Positions 9,445 through 15,351 of a stretch of 48,065 nt of DNA are shown piece after piece. Position 1 is the stretch's first letter; the number at the start of each line of letters is the position of its first letter. A program made the position numbers and the translations under genes. The DNA comes from Bacillus sp. FJAT-27245 (GTDB taxonomy: Bacteria; Bacillota; Bacilli; Bacillales; Cytobacillaceae), in the NCBI RefSeq assembly GCF_001273955.1, contig NZ_LIGI01000001.1, positions 2,838,044-2,886,108 of the forward strand. Reading direction: 5' to 3'. The notes beneath the pieces are model-generated. The model searched no databases. It had not been told where the DNA came from and worked only from the letters and a program-made list of their open reading frames with translations.

Positions 9445-10128
9445 TTGAAAACGATTGTCCTTATCGACGATGAACAGAGAATGCTCGATTTGCTTTCACT
9501 TTATCTTTCGCCACGCGGATTCCATTGCATTGCATTTACTTCCGCCCTTTCAGCCCTCAAATATTTGGAAAGCGGGAAAGCAGACCTCGTCATGCTCGAT
9601 GTCATGATGCCGGAAATGGATGGCTGGGAAGCCTGCGGTGAAATCCGTAGACATTCCGATGTTCCGATTATCTTGCTGACGGCACGGACGGAAAAGCCTG
9701 ATATCGTAAAAGGGTTAAAACTTGGGGCAGACGATTATATTTCAAAACCTTTTGACGAGGAGGAACTTTTTGCACGGATTGAAGCGGTCATGCGAAGGAA
9801 GAACCCAGTGGGCGCCACCCTTTCATTCAAGGGGCTTGTCCTGAACCAGGCCTCCTTTGAACTTGTCTATGAGGGCCAGCCTATTTCCCTTACCCCAAAA
9901 GAGTTTTCCATCCTTGCGATTTTATTAAAAAACAAAAACAAGGTGTTCACGCGTGAACATTTGCTTGCAGCCGTTTGGGGATTTGCCGCATCAACGGAAG
10001 ACCGGACAGTCGATTCGCATGTCCGCAACTTGAGGGACAAGCTGCGAAAGGCAGGTTTCCCGGTGGACGGCCATTTTACGACCGTCTGGGGAATTGGCTA
10101 CAAATGGGTAGACAAACCCGGCTCTTGA
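9445..10128 (+). CDS. Orphan OmpR/PhoB-family response regulator
   Basis: 227 residues. The receiver domain (about 1–115) has the acidic pair DDE at 8–10, phospho-acceptor Asp52 in LDVMMPEMDG, the Thr of LLTART and the conserved Lys of ISKPFD. A winged-helix domain (about 130–225) follows, with SLTPKEFSILAILL, the HLLAAVWG helix and TVDSHVRNLRDKLRK. No histidine kinase gene adjoins it in this window, so the partner is unknown. The start is TTG with GGGAG eight bases upstream, and an isolated TATAAT lies at 9401–9406. It resembles aerobic/oxygen and phosphate-type regulators only at family level. Confidence 0.9.
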   Translation: MKTIVLIDDEQRMLDLLSLYLSPRGFHCIAFTSALSALKYLESGKADLVMLDVMMPEMDGWEACGEIRRHSDVPIILLTARTEKPDIVKGLKLGADDYISKPFDEEELFARIEAVMRRKNPVGATLSFKGLVLNQASFELVYEGQPISLTPKEFSILAILLKNKNKVFTREHLLAAVWGFAASTEDRTVDSHVRNLRDKLRKAGFPVDGHFTTVWGIGYKWVDKPGS

Positions 10129-10248
10129 ATTAAACTTGGGGCTGCAGTTCAATCAATGGGCGGGTTGCTGGCATTGGAGCCCGCTTACGTTTAAGAACTC
10201 CAACGGCATGTGAACTGGAATGAGCTGAAAGTATTTCTCATTTCAAGT

Positions 10249-10277
10249 AAAAAGACAGCTGCTGTCAGCTGCCTTTT
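10249..10277 (-). terminator. Terminator overlapping the sigK 3' end
   Basis: AAAAGGCAGCTG pairs with CAGCTGTCTTTT around a 4-base loop on the minus strand, followed by T-rich sequence. The first arm contains the last codons of sigK. Confidence 0.75.
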
Positions 10278-10990
10278 CCTTTTTTCCGCCGATCTTTCTC
10301 GGCCCGGTAAAATTCGTGGAACATCTTCATTAGCGCGCGCTTTTCAATCCTTGAAACATAGCTCCGGGATATGCCCAGTTCCTTGGCAATTTCGCGCTGT
10401 GTTTTTTCTTTTTGCAAATCAAGCCCAAACCTTCCGACAATGACTTCCTTTTCCCGGTCGTCGAGCACTCCGATATATTGCTTGATTTTTTCCAGCTCCA
10501 TGTTCAACTGGATGGTTTCAATGACATCTTCGGATTCCGACTTCAAAACGTCAATAAGGGAAATTTCGTTTCCTTCCTTATCCTGGCCAATCGGGTCATG
10601 AAGGGAAACATCCTTTTTTGTTTTCTTTAAGGCTCTTAAATGCATAAGTATTTCATTTTCAATACAGCGGGCGGCATAGGTGGCCAGCTTCGTGCCTTTG
10701 CCTTCCGAATAGCTTTCAATCGCCTTGATAAGCCCGATTGTCCCGATTGATATGAGGTCTTCGGCATCCTCTCCGGTATTTTCGAACTTTTTTACGATAT
10801 GGGCGACAAGCCGAAGATTGTGTTCAATGAGGAGGTTGCGCGCATTCGCATCCCCCTGCGCCATCAGCCTTAAGTACTTTTTTTCATCGGCAGAAGACAG
10901 CGGCTGCGGGAAAGCATTGTTTTTCACATAGGAAACGAGAAACACGACTTCCTTAACCAAGTAACCGAGGGCAGCCAGTATACCGGACAT
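10265..10990 (-). CDS. sigK: Pro-sigma-K, late mother-cell sporulation sigma factor (uninterrupted)
   Basis: 241 residues. The N-terminal 20-residue pro-sequence ([20 protein letters not shown]) is followed by mature [12 protein letters not shown], the usual SpoIVFB processing point. Regions 2 ([52 protein letters not shown]) and 4 ([34 protein letters not shown]) are complete in one frame. In B. subtilis 168 this gene is split by the skin prophage; here it is intact. The ATG at 10990 is used rather than the TTG at 10996, because GCGGGGAT precedes it and the pro-sequence then has the standard length. A CATAGAGT motif at 11030–11037 could be a sigma-E-type –10. Confidence 0.97.
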
Positions 10991-11148
10991 ACTCAATCCC
11001 CGCTTTCTGCTCAGCTTGTGTTTTACCTAACTCTATGTAAAAAAAACGGGAAAAGTGTCTGTCCGCCCAAATTTTCTACCAAATTCCTGTATTGGAAAAA
11101 TCAACCTAAAGGCACGAAAAACAAACAATATGACTCGCTTTTGGCAAA

Positions 11149-11177
11149 TGGACATCATAGGAAGCGGATTGTAGAAT
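11149..11177 (+). promoter_or_regulatory. Sigma-A promoter of the 53-residue membrane protein
   Basis: TGGACA (11149–11154) and TAGAAT (11172–11177), each 5/6, are spaced by 17 bp, 25 bases before the TTG start. Confidence 0.65.
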
Positions 11178-11201
11178 AGAAGGGAAAGAGGGGGAAAAGA
11201 A

Positions 11202-11363
11202 TTGGCTGAAAAAATCGTTTTATTGCTTGTTTTAATAATTGTCATACTAGCTACAGCTGCACAGCTGATCTTTGGGGAATTATCGGCGACAAGGGGGCTT
11301 GCAGCTGCCGGGGCAGTCCTCCTTGTCGTATACCTCTGGGTCAGGCCGAAACGGCGGGGTTAA
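11202..11363 (+). CDS. Small membrane protein, unknown function
   Basis: 53-residue ORF starting MAEKIVLLLVLIIVILATAA with a second hydrophobic segment (LAAAGAVLLVVYLWV) and a basic tail (RPKRRG), so probably two membrane helices with a positive C-terminus. The start is TTG, preceded by GAGGGGG at 7-nt spacing. It has its own good sigma-A promoter and a hairpin follows 12 bases after the stop. I do not recognise the family. Gene reality rests on the coincidence of promoter, Shine-Dalgarno, ORF and terminator. Confidence 0.68.
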   Translation: MAEKIVLLLVLIIVILATAAQLIFGELSATRGLAAAGAVLLVVYLWVRPKRRG

Positions 11364-11374
11364 CAAATAAGAAA

Positions 11375-11402
11375 AAAGCATTAACCCAAAGGCTAATGCT
11401 TT
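11375..11402. terminator. Bidirectional terminator between convergent small genes
   Basis: AAAGCATTA pairs with TAATGCTTT around a 10-base loop. On the minus strand it is followed by six T, on the plus strand by TTCTCTCTT, so it is stronger for the minus-strand transcript. Confidence 0.75.
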
Positions 11403-11410
11403 CTCTCTTA

Positions 11411-11491
11411 TTAATCCTCTACGCTTACCTCGGCGGCAATAATGCAGCCAATTACTCCGGTAACAATCAATACTAAAGCCATCAAGAACAT
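11411..11491 (-). CDS. 26-residue hydrophobic peptide
   Basis: Begins MFLMALVLIVTGVIGCIIAA and ends in an acidic EVSVED tail: one likely membrane helix with negative charge on one side. AAGGGGTG precedes the ATG with 6-nt spacing. A perfect TATAAT lies at 11530–11535 on the minus strand but has a poor –35 (TGTACG). The gene could therefore have its own promoter or be the last cistron of the yrzI transcript, whose last ORF ends 81 bases upstream. A terminator follows nine bases after the stop. Function unknown. Confidence 0.6.
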   Translation of the reverse strand: MFLMALVLIVTGVIGCIIAAEVSVED

Positions 11492-11572
11492 AACCTGCAC
11501 CCCTTGCTCTATCTGTTATCTATATCTTAATTATAGTATATATAGTAGTTACCGTACAGCCATGTGGCGTTT

Positions 11573-11641
11573 TTACCTGCTGGCCTGGCCTTCTTTCTTC
11601 AGACGAACGAAAAAACAAAGTAAAAAACAATGGATAGGCAT
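11573..11641 (-). CDS. 22-residue ORF, last of the yrzI small-ORF array
   Basis: Begins MPIHCFLLCFFVRLKKEGQA. It has a short cysteine- and phenylalanine-rich hydrophobic head and a basic tail. AAAGGGGG precedes the ATG by seven bases, an unusually strong Shine-Dalgarno for a random ORF. It follows the 19-residue ORF by 25 bases. Whether the peptide accumulates, or only its translation matters, cannot be told from sequence. Confidence 0.55.
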   Translation of the reverse strand: MPIHCFLLCFFVRLKKEGQASR

Positions 11642-11666
11642 GCACTTTCCCCCTTTCGGAAATCGA

Positions 11667-11726
11667 TTACGCCGTATCTTTCCAAATCCAATACCAGCCT
11701 CTTTTGTTCTGCATTAAAAATATCAT
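11667..11726 (-). CDS. 19-residue Trp-rich ORF in the yrzI array
   Basis: MIFLMQNKRGWYWIWKDTA. AAAGGGG precedes the ATG by nine bases. It lies 20 bases after the downstream yrzI copy. A longer frame through the same DNA (from about 11820) overlaps yrzI and has no good start, so this short ORF is preferred. The B. subtilis yrzI transcript is also polycistronic for very short ORFs, which supports reading this as a genuine cistron. Peptide function unknown. Confidence 0.5.
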   Translation of the reverse strand: MIFLMQNKRGWYWIWKDTA

Positions 11727-11746
11727 GCCATATTTCCCCTTTCCTG

Positions 11747-11887
11747 TTAAAGTGGCCTGTAAAGATTGAGTGCACGGGCTTTGTTTTCCTCGTGGATTTT
11801 CCTGGAATGCTCCATGGCAATCAATTCTTCCGGGCTATAAATCCTCTTTTTAATTGTAATTGTTAAGAAAAAAAGTTGAAGTGTCAT
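11747..11887 (-). CDS. yrzI: YrzI family small protein (downstream copy)
   Basis: 46 residues: MTLQLFFLTITIKKRIYSPE, then a charged helix with EENKARALNLYRPL. The MTLxxFFLTITIxKR head plus acidic/basic second half is the YrzI family pattern. In B. subtilis yrzI sits in a polycistronic mRNA of tiny ORFs that is cut by the ribosome-associated endonuclease Rae1 (YacP); overproduction of members of this transcript is reported to be harmful. GGTGGTGA precedes the ATG. It follows the other yrzI copy by 19 bases and is clearly a paralogue of it. Confidence 0.85.
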   Translation of the reverse strand: MTLQLFFLTITIKKRIYSPEELIAMEHSRKIHEENKARALNLYRPL

Positions 11888-11906
11888 CTACTTTCACCAC
11901 CTTTAC

Positions 11907-12047
11907 TTAAAACGGGCGGTACAATGAAAATTGGCGATTTCTGTTTTCCTCGGTAATTTTCTCAATACGCTCCCGCCTGATTATTTCTTCCGGGTCCATT
12001 TGCCGCTTCGAAATTGTAATTGTCATAAAAAAAATGTTTAACGTCAT
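11907..12047 (-). CDS. yrzI: YrzI family small protein (upstream copy)
   Basis: 46 residues: MTLNIFFMTITISKRQMDPE, then RRERIEKITEENRNRQFSLY and RPF. It has the same length, head and C-terminal (S/N)LYRP motif as the neighbouring copy, so the pair arose by tandem duplication. AGGGGGTGA lies five bases before the ATG and overlaps the stop of a 23-codon leader ORF. The transcript would start near 12141 and pass an intrinsic hairpin before reaching this gene. Function within the family is unresolved; a membrane-active peptide is possible given the hydrophobic head. Confidence 0.87.
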   Translation of the reverse strand: MTLNIFFMTITISKRQMDPEEIIRRERIEKITEENRNRQFSLYRPF

Positions 12048-12052
12048 CCCAC

Positions 12053-12124
12053 TCACCCCCTATATGCCATATCCTTTTTAATTGCACAAAAAAAGCCACA
12101 GAAAGAATCATTTCCCTGCGGCAT
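12053..12124 (-). CDS. 23-codon leader ORF containing an intrinsic terminator
   Basis: Begins MPQGNDSFCGFFCAIKKDMA and ends YRG. GAGGGGTG precedes its ATG. The GCCGCAG/CTGTGGC hairpin and its T run are part of the coding sequence, and its stop codon lies within the Shine-Dalgarno region of the first yrzI gene. That geometry fits a leader peptide whose translation affects terminator formation, but it could also be a fortuitous ORF across a terminator. Confidence 0.4.
   Translation of the reverse strand: MPQGNDSFCGFFCAIKKDMAYRG
12088..12122 (-). terminator. Intrinsic terminator/attenuator ahead of yrzI
   Basis: On the minus strand GCCGCAG pairs with CTGTGGC (7 bp with one G·U) around a 14-base loop, followed by seven T. 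It lies between the promoter at 12148–12176 and yrzI, so it must be read through for yrzI expression unless another promoter exists. Confidence 0.7.
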
Positions 12125-12147
12125 ACCCCACCCCTCAAGCCAGCCCT

Positions 12148-12176
12148 TTTATAGTGGGCAGACTTCGGCGAGTAAA
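12148..12176 (-). promoter_or_regulatory. Sigma-A promoter of the yrzI array
   Basis: TTTACT (12171–12176, 4/6) and TATAAA (12148–12153, 5/6) are spaced by 17 bp on the minus strand. The predicted start near 12141 gives a leader of about 95 nt before yrzI. Confidence 0.6.
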
Positions 12177-12191
12177 GGTTATTTTGAGCAT

Positions 12192-12224
12192 AAAAATGCC
12201 GCGGGCACAGTTCTCCCGCGGCAT
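12192..12224 (-). terminator. Strong terminator of the 25-residue gene
   Basis: ATGCCGCGGG pairs perfectly with CCCGCGGCAT around a 9-base loop, followed on the minus strand by TTTTTATG. Confidence 0.85.
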
Positions 12225-12253
12225 GGACATGGCTAATTTAACAAACTTACTTG

Positions 12254-12331
12254 TTAGGCAATCCAGTTCCTGAAGGCAGAACATGCATGATTTTCATATG
12301 AAGTTTTGTTTCCGTTGTAAAACTTAATCAT
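12254..12331 (-). CDS. 25-residue peptide gene with consensus promoter
   Basis: Begins MIKFYNGNKTSYENHACSAF and ends in a Trp-containing tail (RNWIA). AGGAGG lies seven bases before the ATG. The unit is complete: near-consensus promoter, strong Shine-Dalgarno, ORF, and a 10-bp-stem terminator 30 bases after the stop. A 16-codon ORF in another frame (12247–12297) overlaps it but has no ribosome binding site. I do not recognise the family. No comX-type or Rap-type partner is adjacent, so a pheromone role is not supported. Confidence 0.65.
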   Translation of the reverse strand: MIKFYNGNKTSYENHACSAFRNWIA

Positions 12332-12370
12332 GGTAATGCCTCCTTCCTGAATAATTTACCAACTATAGCC

Positions 12371-12399
12371 ATTATATACACTGCAAAGATGAATGTAAA
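12371..12399 (-). promoter_or_regulatory. Near-consensus sigma-A promoter of the 25-residue gene
   Basis: TTTACA (12394–12399, 5/6) and TATAAT (12371–12376, 6/6) with 17-bp spacing. It is one of the best promoter matches in the window, here driving only a 25-codon ORF. Confidence 0.75.
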
Positions 12400-12472
12400 C
12401 CTTTTTGATGAAAAATATTCATTTGTTTCATATTTATGGTAATTTTTTATGAAGTGTTTCGAGGAAAACGCA

Positions 12473-12499
12473 AAAAAAATACGCCCATTAAGTGGGCGT
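12473..12499 (-). terminator. Terminator after yrhC
   Basis: ACGCCCA and TGGGCGT form a 7-bp stem around a 5-base loop, followed by eight T on the minus strand. It ends the transsulfuration operon. Confidence 0.85.
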
Positions 12500-12506
12500 T
12501 GCGACT

Positions 12507-12761
12507 TTATTGGAAATACTCTTCCCCATCTTCATGTTCCATTAGTTGTTCCCTGTATGCCTTTGATCTCAAGAATGCGAGAATCGAAGCCGCAAGGAAA
12601 ACAAGAGACGAGACGGACATGCCGGCTGCATCCTTTAAGCTCGCGGATGCTGTAGGAAGAATAGCGCCTATATAGAAAAATGAGCCCGCTGCCAAAAGGA
12701 CAATTCCAAACCATTTGGTATCGGTCATTTTTTCAAACAGTTCTTTTGCCTGTAGTTGCAT
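12507..12761 (-). CDS. yrhC: YrhC family membrane protein
   Basis: 84 residues with two hydrophobic segments (WFGIVLLAAGSFFYIGAILP and MSVSSLVFLAASILAFL) separated by a short polar loop, then a charged tail ending GEEYFQ. This is the YrhC-like family, found after yrhB (mccB) in Bacillus; its function is unknown. The ATG follows AGGTGA. It lies 530 bases from mccB, farther than expected for a tight operon, with a repeat-bearing spacer between. It may be the distal gene of the CymR-regulated unit or be transcribed separately. Confidence 0.85.
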   Translation of the reverse strand: MQLQAKELFEKMTDTKWFGIVLLAAGSFFYIGAILPTASASLKDAAGMSVSSLVFLAASILAFLRSKAYREQLMEHEDGEEYFQ

Positions 12762-13004
12762 CTGCTCACCTGCTTTTCTAAAAGAATACTAATCTAATTT
12801 AACATATTTTTACGGTTAGTGAGCAATGTAATTATTAACATTGTTGGAACATTCATTTTGCTGGGTGCAAAACTACTGGAGACAGTTGCATGGGTCCGGT
12901 TTGAGTCCCATCTTTTTTGGAAATTAGCAGAACTTGGTTACTCAAATGGGGTTTGAGTGACATTCTCTTCATATCTTGGAAGGTGAGTCAAAAGATACCT
13001 CGTG

Positions 13005-13170
13005 TTTGGACAGCTAAGTGGATTTTCGGGGGTTAGGTGTCCAAAGATATCCCTTGTTTGGACGGCTAATTGAGGTTTTGCAGCTTCAGTGTCCAAATGA
13101 AGTATTCGGACAGCCCATAGCATTTACGCAACCTCGCTGTCCAAACGAATTTTGGCCAGACAATATCATT
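13005..13170. repeat. Intergenic repeat region, GTTTGGACAGC family
   Basis: The 530-base yrhC–mccB spacer holds no gene I can support. From about 13005 it contains repeated, often inverted copies of TTTGGACAGC or its complement (13014, 13041, 13059, 13091, 13107, 13135). An 18-base segment at 13128–13145 is the exact complement of 41639–41656. The part from 12762 to 13004 shows nothing recognisable. Confidence 0.75.
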
Positions 13171-13292
13171 CAAATAGGGGTTAATCGACTTCATTTTTCC
13201 CCGAAGCGACACTCAACCCCACAGCGCCTGGCCTTTCGCAAAACAAAAACAAAACGCCGGCCTCGAAAAACGGGGCCGGCGTTACAAATTGG

Positions 13293-15351
<2,059 letters not shown>

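Follow-up and report, generated by a model that had tools for sequence, protein, structure and literature searches.

The yrzI operon of Bacillus sp. FJAT-27245, located in a 48,065-nt stretch of contig NZ_LIGI01000001.1 (positions 2,838,044 to 2,886,108, hereafter the window), is preceded by a leader that contains a short upstream open reading frame (uORF), whose Shine-Dalgarno sequence (SD) can pair with an arm lying inside the same uORF, and two intrinsic terminators, T1 and T2, situated between the uORF and yrzI. Taken together with a codon signal in a micro-ORF downstream of yrzI, this makes it probable that we are dealing with a translation-stress operon whose 5' end is gated by ribosome-mediated attenuation and whose interior is subject to decay by the ribosome-dependent endoribonuclease Rae1. 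Rae1 has few candidate targets, and yrzI has no known purpose or signal. Literature passages naming yrzI, a scope that leaves aside the main Rae1 papers, describe neither a leader uORF nor attenuation for this gene.

The leader uORF and its Shine-Dalgarno stem

The leader was compared among 135 yrzI loci from 133 genomes, a subset of the PF09501-positive genomes; in 125 of these loci a YrzI ORF passed a pattern and SD filter, and the other ten were dropped. A uORF of 21–38 codons is present in 111 of the 125 loci, from 54 genera and 23 family groups, and in all eight genomes of the window genus, the filter, whose chance rate was not computed, being an ORF of fewer than 40 codons with an SD of at most –12 kcal/mol and a start 150–420 nt 5' of yrzI.

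Conservation of this uORF is at the level of RNA rather than peptide. Its codon positions differ at nearly equal rates (0.519, 0.487, and 0.511 for the last 14 codons in 19 genera of the family). The typical SD stretch, AGGAGGTCGAAT, contains the complement of the octamer ATTCGACC, which sits within the same uORF and is read as HST, IRP, or FDL depending on the lineage, that is, in all three frames. The SD and the arm change jointly: the pairs are GGAGGCA:TGCCTTC in the window genus, GGCTGAA:TTCAGCC in the Bacillus group, and GGGAAGG:CCTTCCC in another one. In one relative from the window genus (L010) two indels shift the uORF frame, which still remains open, and the RNA motif is retained. We considered a conserved peptide and rejected it, as CATTCGACC gives the C-terminus HST..EWIA in a single lineage, other lineages having IRP or FDL, and codon positions differ about equally. 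With its three-frame arm, the leader illustrates well how a uORF can be retained for its RNA sequence and not for its peptide. One more element inside the uORF, AACTTCATAT, is weak, at least eight of its ten letters being found in 59 of the 111 uORFs vs. 18 shuffled ones.

The SD-arm stem is stronger than in shuffled sequences (mean z –2.74), with at most five of 100 shuffles equaling it in 43 of 54 genera; in the control, where the SD of YrzI was folded against its own coding region, the respective values are z +0.25 and five of 54 genera.

The initial annotation of this DNA had placed the promoter at 12176-12148 (TTTACT-17-TATAAA). This position falls between the two terminator hairpins, inside the leader, and the hexamers are not preserved in the two genus relatives aligned there, so we do not retain it. 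A conserved sigma-A-type promoter, TTTACA-17-TATAAT, lies farther 5', at 12399-12371, and occupies the equivalent place among the relatives listed. The same annotation had missed the 25-codon uORF, T1, T2, and a 26-aa hydrophobic peptide at the other end of the cluster; the 5' leader is the main regulatory feature of the locus.

Terminators, alternative pairings, and covariation

In the window, the minimum free energy (MFE) structure of the leader (306 nt, –100.9 kcal/mol) comprises the SD-arm stem, T1, T2, and a closing stem, P0. Between the uORF and yrzI, 106 of 111 leaders have one or more terminator-like hairpins, and 86 have two or more. In many loci the stems of T1 and T2 match each other and change jointly, with GCCGCAGG in most of them, GCCACAGG in several groups, and CACAGACC in one; conservation extends to stem P0 and to the T1 loop (AGAAU..GUG).

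For analysis of covariation, 44 leaders were aligned with MAFFT, each genus being represented by one leader and the window genus by three; all of them have two terminators and a distance to yrzI of up to 300 nt. Unaided, RNAalifold recovered T1 and T2 along with four pairs of the SD-arm stem, with double changes in 16 of 20 pairs. When the structure is named in advance, 90.6% of alignment cells are paired and 23 of 29 pairs have double changes, compared to 0 of 500 shuffles and to 40–50% in slid controls; the SD of the window genus is two columns off in this alignment, and its rows count against the stem. Alternative pairings were counted as well: the T1 3' arm and the T2 5' arm are complementary in 87.6% of cells, with double changes in eight of ten pairs, and the uORF arm and the T1 loop, in 78.2%. 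The mean energy of pairing between the T1 loop and the arm is –9.1 kcal/mol for the leader's own arm vs. –6.4 for arms of other families (0 of 5000 permutations, 50 genera), and in 46 of 50 genera the own arm is preferred over the middle of other families' arms. The permutation test for P0 yielded 0 of 5000 over 46 genera.

No Rfam 15 family matches at the gathering score in positions 10000–13500 of the window or in nine loci, the window's own among them; matches below the threshold were taken as chance.

Similar leaders upstream of bmrC and other genes

The exact leader motif has one site in each of 77 genomes out of 201, the reversed control pattern yielding two sites. A model built from 28 leaders, to which RNAalifold contributed the T1 stem alone, has sites in 44 of 61 genomes including that of the window (E at most 0.01, one or more sites each); the single site in the window genome belongs to the training set. 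Second matches precede genes of a DrrA-like ABC transporter (L222, E 8e-8; L223, 4e-4; L230, 2e-3), and a match before an ABC exporter gene (L226, E 3e-6) is the only one in its genome. Weak matches (E 0.01–0.35) were found at genes for RsgA-like GTPases (L241, L242) and bmrC (L243, L245, L246). Of seven further weak full-length matches (E 0.01–0.18), five are gene-internal or structureless, while those at an APH-family kinase gene (L256) and at bmrC (L259) looked real; other weak matches were very short, incomplete, or already accounted for. The L243 gene is the BmrC/YheI orthologue (PDB 8t1p_C, E 1.8e-247), and at L245, L246, and L259 the bmrC gene was recognized by eye. Locus L224 has the same leader design before a gene without identification; on inspection, L236, L237, and L244 have no such leader. 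In ten leaders not associated with yrzI (picked by eye, L224 included) the SD-arm stem is equaled by at most 28 of 500 shuffles each.

In all ten genomes examined, including the window genome and B. spizizenii, bmrC is preceded by a strong-SD uORF and then by terminator-like hairpins, as seen by eye; in the three leaders tested, the SD-arm stem is equaled by 0, 0, and 18 of 500 shuffles. A micro-ORF stands before bmrC in most of these genomes (26 aa in B. spizizenii). Ribosome-mediated attenuation has been published for the bmrB leader, which responds to lincomycin and where antibiotic-induced read-through requires both translation of bmrB and an intact terminator (relevant passages of PMC4191407). 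As in an attenuator of this type, the yrzI leader has an SD-bearing ORF (12331-12254) 5' of intrinsic terminators (T1 and T2). The two leaders share a short strong-SD uORF, an arm in its interior complementary to the SD, and terminator hairpins downstream, bmrC being also mostly preceded by a micro-ORF. They differ in the downstream genes and in that the published bmrB terminator lies inside the annotated ORF, while T1 and T2 follow the uORF. The yrzI and bmr leaders are likely homologous.

In the B. spizizenii bmrC leader (L250) the leader ORF with the best SD has 23 codons, lies 303 nt 5' of bmrC, and is in a frame other than the long TTG/GTG frame crossing the terminator, so that bmrB may have been annotated in the wrong frame.

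The micro-ORF after yrzI and the Rae1-type site

A micro-ORF of the S1025 family (19 aa in the window) follows the last YrzI ORF in 89 of 125 loci from 42 genera, and ORFs of the 22-aa type are found in 49 of 125 loci from 32 genera. In the window genus the former is present in eight genomes of eight, and the latter, in seven of eight by the filter used. Micro-ORFs of the former type were selected by an SD of at most –9 kcal/mol and certain residues before Asp near the end; their amino-acid tally is partly set by this filter, and the codon tally is independent of it. The 89 micro-ORFs have a mean SD of –13.0 kcal/mol and start with ATG in 87 cases. Within the genus, differences at codon positions 1, 2, and 3 are 0.145, 0.126, and 0.321 for the 19-aa frame and 0.308, 0.139, and 0.553 for the 22-aa frame, the third-position rise being also observed for the 26-aa peptide and YrzI. 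Hence these frames are real and are under protein-like codon constraint. The initial annotation had proposed that lack of conservation of the 19- and 22-codon frames, with third positions drifting freely, would speak against its reading; both frames are conserved next to yrzI, with an excess of third-position changes and no free drift.

In 60 of 89 loci the micro-ORF ends with a Glu-Lys-Asp (EKD) motif, whose Glu is encoded by GAG in all sixty; the YrzI ORFs of these loci have 689 GAA and 166 GAG codons for Glu. The remaining 29 micro-ORFs have a G-ending codon at the Glu place in 26 cases, the exceptions being L039, L091, and L100, so that NNG is found in 86 of 89 overall. The codon following NNG starts with A, except in family group f13, where it starts with G. 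This codon bias implies that the EKD site is constrained at the RNA level as well as at the level of peptide. In the window genus, EKD is present in none of eight loci vs. 21 of 23 in other genera of the family, Glu being replaced by Trp, Met, Leu, or Lys; the pattern NNG/A..GAY (the slash is the putative cut) is retained in eight of eight.

Rae1 is reported to cut S1025 between the Glu and Lys codons; in B. subtilis, S1025 has 17 aa and bmrX, 26 aa. In the B. subtilis group, a 17-aa micro-ORF ending with MEKDQV occupies the equivalent site in five species examined, and two others have 18 or 19 aa. The lengths in B. spizizenii, 17 aa after yrzI (MLRMELLMHYTMEKDQV) and 26 aa before bmrC, agree with these; by its length of 17 aa, the micro-ORF of this group would be S1025.

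Rae1 (YacP, PF05991) is encoded in the window genome (G000, E 6e-59), and the family is present in all 61 genomes searched, with one partial match. In the parts of the respective reports that deal with these points, Rae1 is a ribosomal A-site endoribonuclease (PMC6613710), it needs translation to destabilize B. subtilis mRNAs (PMC10100781), and the S1025/yrzI operon is among its seven candidate targets (PMC10632193). Judging by sequence features, it is plausible that the yrzI operon considered here is a Rae1 target as well.

Two other ideas on the site were dropped. A general Rae1 rule of the NNG/A form is ruled out by GAA/AAA in B. spizizenii bmrX and by NNG/G in one family group. A GGUGGA:UCCACC hairpin at the EKD site, judged by eye and not counted, is seen in many relatives, but both the window genus and the B. 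subtilis group lack it. In some family groups (L068, L080, L120, L123, L131, L040) a micro-ORF ending with WY[KE][KQ]VKGLT lies approximately 90 nt 5' of yrzI, and no EKD micro-ORF was found 3' of yrzI in them.

Proposed mechanism and alternative explanations

The following scheme may be suggested. The uORF SD, paired with the arm inside the uORF, would gate uORF initiation; the arm could alternatively pair with the T1 loop, and the T1 3' arm, with the T2 5' arm. With ribosomes moving along the uORF at the normal rate, most transcripts would end at T1 and T2, leaving a short leader RNA. Slow or stalled ribosomes on the uORF would shift the pairing, the terminators would be by-passed, and yrzI with its micro-ORFs would be transcribed. 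Ribosomes on the 19-codon micro-ORF would then bring the A-site endonuclease Rae1 to NNG/A..GAY, limiting the mRNA. In the E. coli trp attenuator, a leader ORF is combined with alternative hairpins having common arms (1:2, 2:3, 3:4). The yrzI leader resembles it in having a leader ORF and putative arm-sharing alternative hairpins, and differs in the absence of a run of regulatory codons, the sequestered uORF SD, two terminators, and the additional switch between the SD, the arm, and the T1 loop. Depletion of the tRNA maturases RNase P or RNase Z raises both yrzI and bmrCD mRNAs (passages of PMC10100781 on these genes). Because the yrzI leader has the parts of the bmrB leader and the two operons respond alike to this depletion, we favor ribosome-mediated attenuation. 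In B. licheniformis, table entries list 301 nt 5' and 541 nt 3' of yrzI as transcribed, the sides being taken from coordinates (PMC3871023, the entries for this gene); these and a 234-nt B. subtilis RNA discussed below are compatible with the leader, their positions being unmapped onto it.

Several observations weigh against this scheme. The uORF codons vary widely and do not point clearly to any one amino acid as a signal. The window's own SD-arm stem is equaled by nine of 100 shuffles, its genus being one of 11 out of 54 that exceed five of 100. No terminator was found in five of 111 leaders, and among the eight leaders of the window genus two yielded only T2 and one, only T1. Eight of 29 pairs of the named structure are non-standard in at least six of 44 rows, the outer pair of the helix between the arm and the T1 loop fails in 20 of 44, and in four of 50 genera the T1 loop fits its own arm no better than the middle of other families' arms. 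The similarity of T1 and T2 could come from duplication rather than from a required 2:3 pairing. The first hairpin begins at a median of 27.5 nt past the uORF stop codon (13–40 nt in 93 of 106 leaders), hence a ribosome at the stop codon would mostly not cover it and the trp logic is not directly transferable; for the same reason, the contact between the arm and the T1 loop may be the link that flips T1 and T2. Shuffle and permutation tests leave relatedness in, and since related sequences can beat shuffles without any structure, the slid controls and the three-frame reading of the arm weigh more. As for decay, the window genus has lost the Glu of EKD, other Glu codons inside the micro-ORFs are 13 GAA to 13 GAG, B. 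spizizenii bmrX has GAA/AAA instead of NNG/A, and no micro-ORF was found in the bmrC leader of the window genome at the SD cut-off used.

It seems unlikely that the leader acts chiefly as an independent small RNA (sRNA), with T1 and T2 being ordinary tandem terminators, the SD-arm stem tuning a minor uORF, and yrzI expressed by unregulated read-through. Such an RNA would fit the 234-nt Hfq-associated ncr2184/ncr60 in the yrzI-yrhG interval of B. subtilis, the coordinates of which are unmapped onto the leader (PMC3574147), the listing of S1026 5' of yrzI (PMC3498285), and the FZB42 yrzI-yrhG transcript earlier identified as sRNA (PMC4634765), all three as given in the passages on this interval. 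However, a plain terminated sRNA needs neither the fit of the arm to the T1 loop across families nor the covarying cross-pairing of T1 and T2, and a similar leader design precedes bmrC, for which attenuation has been published. Antitermination by an RNA-binding protein or another RNA, instead of a ribosome on the uORF, would account for the conservation of P0 and the T1 loop AGAAU..GUG as a recognition site, but it leaves unexplained why a strong-SD uORF is retained in 111 of 125 loci; moreover, the T1 loop tends to track the arm by lineage, as expected from pairing and not from a fixed protein site, and we consider this explanation improbable.

The initial annotation had suggested, as a possibility, a peptide toxin unit whose expression is restrained by decay coupled to translation. 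Both the 22-aa and the 26-aa product are indeed partly hydrophobic, and the operon is a listed Rae1 target in the passages cited above, yet the 22-, 23-, 25-, and 26-aa peptides have no Pfam or NCBIfam match at E of at most 1, nor has the 19-aa one, searched as a doubled string, in NCBIfam; there is no Rfam match at the gathering score, the 19-aa type is retained in 42 genera and the 22-aa type in 32, and the claimed toxicity of some products could not be confirmed. As nothing found points to toxicity, with PADLOC and an antisense antitoxin not having been searched for, we give this suggestion little credence. Least probable is that the micro-ORFs are untranslated and the 19-codon region is solely an RNA decay element: it would explain the third-position constraint at the site (GAG in 60 of 60), but the strong SDs, the nearly universal ATG starts, and the codon pattern of a coding frame speak against it, as does the dependence of Rae1-mediated mRNA destabilization on translation in B. 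subtilis (PMC10100781, in the part concerned).

If attenuation coupled with Rae1 decay is correct, yrzI and bmrCD are under one kind of ribosome-sensing leader, and the roles of YrzI and Rae1 in translation stress can be put to a direct test; in addition, sequence searches with the leader offer a way to find further genes induced by ribosome inhibition in Bacillales. With slightly less than even confidence, we may go further and propose an undescribed family of self-sequestering uORF attenuators that would sense general ribosome slowdown and not one drug or amino acid, spread across Bacillales and preceding yrzI, bmrCD, and other genes of the ABC-transporter, RsgA-like, and APH-family kinds. 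In the two known Rae1 targets these would be paired with a Rae1-cut micro-ORF, one sensor opening transcription and a second ribosome-coupled device closing it.

Operon layout and other features

Coordinates of all features are given in Table 1. Four minus-strand ORFs, YrzI-1, YrzI-2, and those of 19 and 22 codons, are separated by 19, 20, and 25 nt and are each preceded by a purine-rich SD, in agreement with the initial annotation. Of its "four or five" cistrons four stand; the fifth, a 23-codon ORF at 12124-12053, is the T2 hairpin read as codons. The assignment to a yrzI-type operon that is a plausible Rae1 target holds too, given the PF09501 matches, the S1025-family micro-ORF, and the presence of Rae1/YacP in the genome.

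Table 1. Features of the yrzI locus in the window.
Feature	Coordinates	Strand	Basis and remarks
Promoter TTTACA-17-TATAAT, start of leader transcript	12371..12399	-	11 of 12 consensus matches; sigma-A-type; equivalent place among the relatives listed
Leader uORF SD	12332..12345	-	5' arm of the stem that sequesters the SD: GGAGGCA (12337-12343); in the MFE fold, start codon also paired
Leader uORF, 25 codons	12254..12331	-	Conserved as RNA, not peptide
Arm GTTCTGCCTTC inside uORF	12272..12282	-	Alternative partners: uORF SD (TGCCTTC:GGAGGCA) or T1 loop (GTTCT:AGAAC)
Closing stem P0, 5' side GCCATGTCC	12225..12233	-	Partner GGATATGGC at 12074-12066; in the MFE fold
Intrinsic terminator T1, loop AGAACTGTG	12191..12224	-	Hairpin comparison
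Intrinsic terminator T2	12087..12122	-	Stem related to that of T1; directly 5' of yrzI-1
YrzI copy 1, 46 aa	11907..12047	-	PF09501, 58.0 bits; TIGR02413, 46 bits
YrzI copy 2, 46 aa	11747..11887	-	PF09501, 60.1 bits; TIGR02413, 42.4 bits
19-aa micro-ORF MIFLMQNKRGWYWIWKDTA, S1025 family	11667..11726	-	89 of 125 loci, 8 of 8 in genus; codon constraint; starts 20 nt past YrzI-2 with its own SD
Putative Rae1 cleavage site TGG/AAA GAT ACG, in place of NNG/A..GAY (EKD in relatives)	11673..11684	-	Codon tallies; cut position presumed
22-aa ORF MPIHCFLLCFFVRLKKEGQASR	11573..11641	-	Similar ORFs in 49 of 125 loci; third-position excess
26-aa hydrophobic, probably membrane, peptide MFLMALVLIVTGVIGCIIAAEVSVED	11411..11491	-	42 of 125 loci; before the next terminator
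Cluster-end terminator	11368..11405	-	Sequence

Both YrzI copies pass the PF09501 gathering cut-off (23 bits) with near-full-length profile alignments and just miss the curated cut-off of TIGR02413 (47.05 bits). They are the only two PF09501 matches in the window genome (E at most 1). The family is present in 45 of 61 genomes including this one (E at most 0.1) and in 119 of 249 genomes sampled from the order. All eight genomes of the genus have two copies. The initial annotation had called the system expanded, which is true for the second YrzI copy alone and does not make it unusual, as tandem copies are found in 34 of 125 loci. The 22-, 23-, 25-, and 26-aa peptides have no Pfam or NCBIfam match at E of at most 1, and the 19-aa one, searched solely against NCBIfam as a doubled string, has no match there.

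The B. subtilis operon (yrzI, S1024, S1025, S1026) is similar in the order of YrzI and a micro-ORF with its own SD, in the leader uORF with an interior arm complementary to the SD, and in the presence of Rae1. In contrast to it, the window has two YrzI copies, its genus has Trp, Met, Leu, or Lys for the Glu of EKD with NNG/A retained, and the 22- and 26-aa ORFs replace a protein of approximately 50 aa, GHGYASMPHSFKHGYGNP.

The operon is flanked by yrhC (PF14143) and by a same-strand ORF for a sigma-K-like sigma factor, the latter identified by eye. A 53-codon hydrophobic ORF without a significant family match, on the plus strand at 11202-11363, is convergent with the cluster. The 26-aa peptide probably has a gene of its own, which may be a transcription unit separate from the cluster. 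In many other genera of the family, the 26-aa peptide is preceded by a motif like TTAACAAAATGTTCACA, which has a Rex/FNR-like look; the window species is without it. In the B. subtilis lineage (L046, L139, L144, L146, L155, L158) a protein of approximately 50 aa with GHGYAS.PHSFKHGYGNP follows the micro-ORF, where other genera carry the 22- and 26-aa ORFs.

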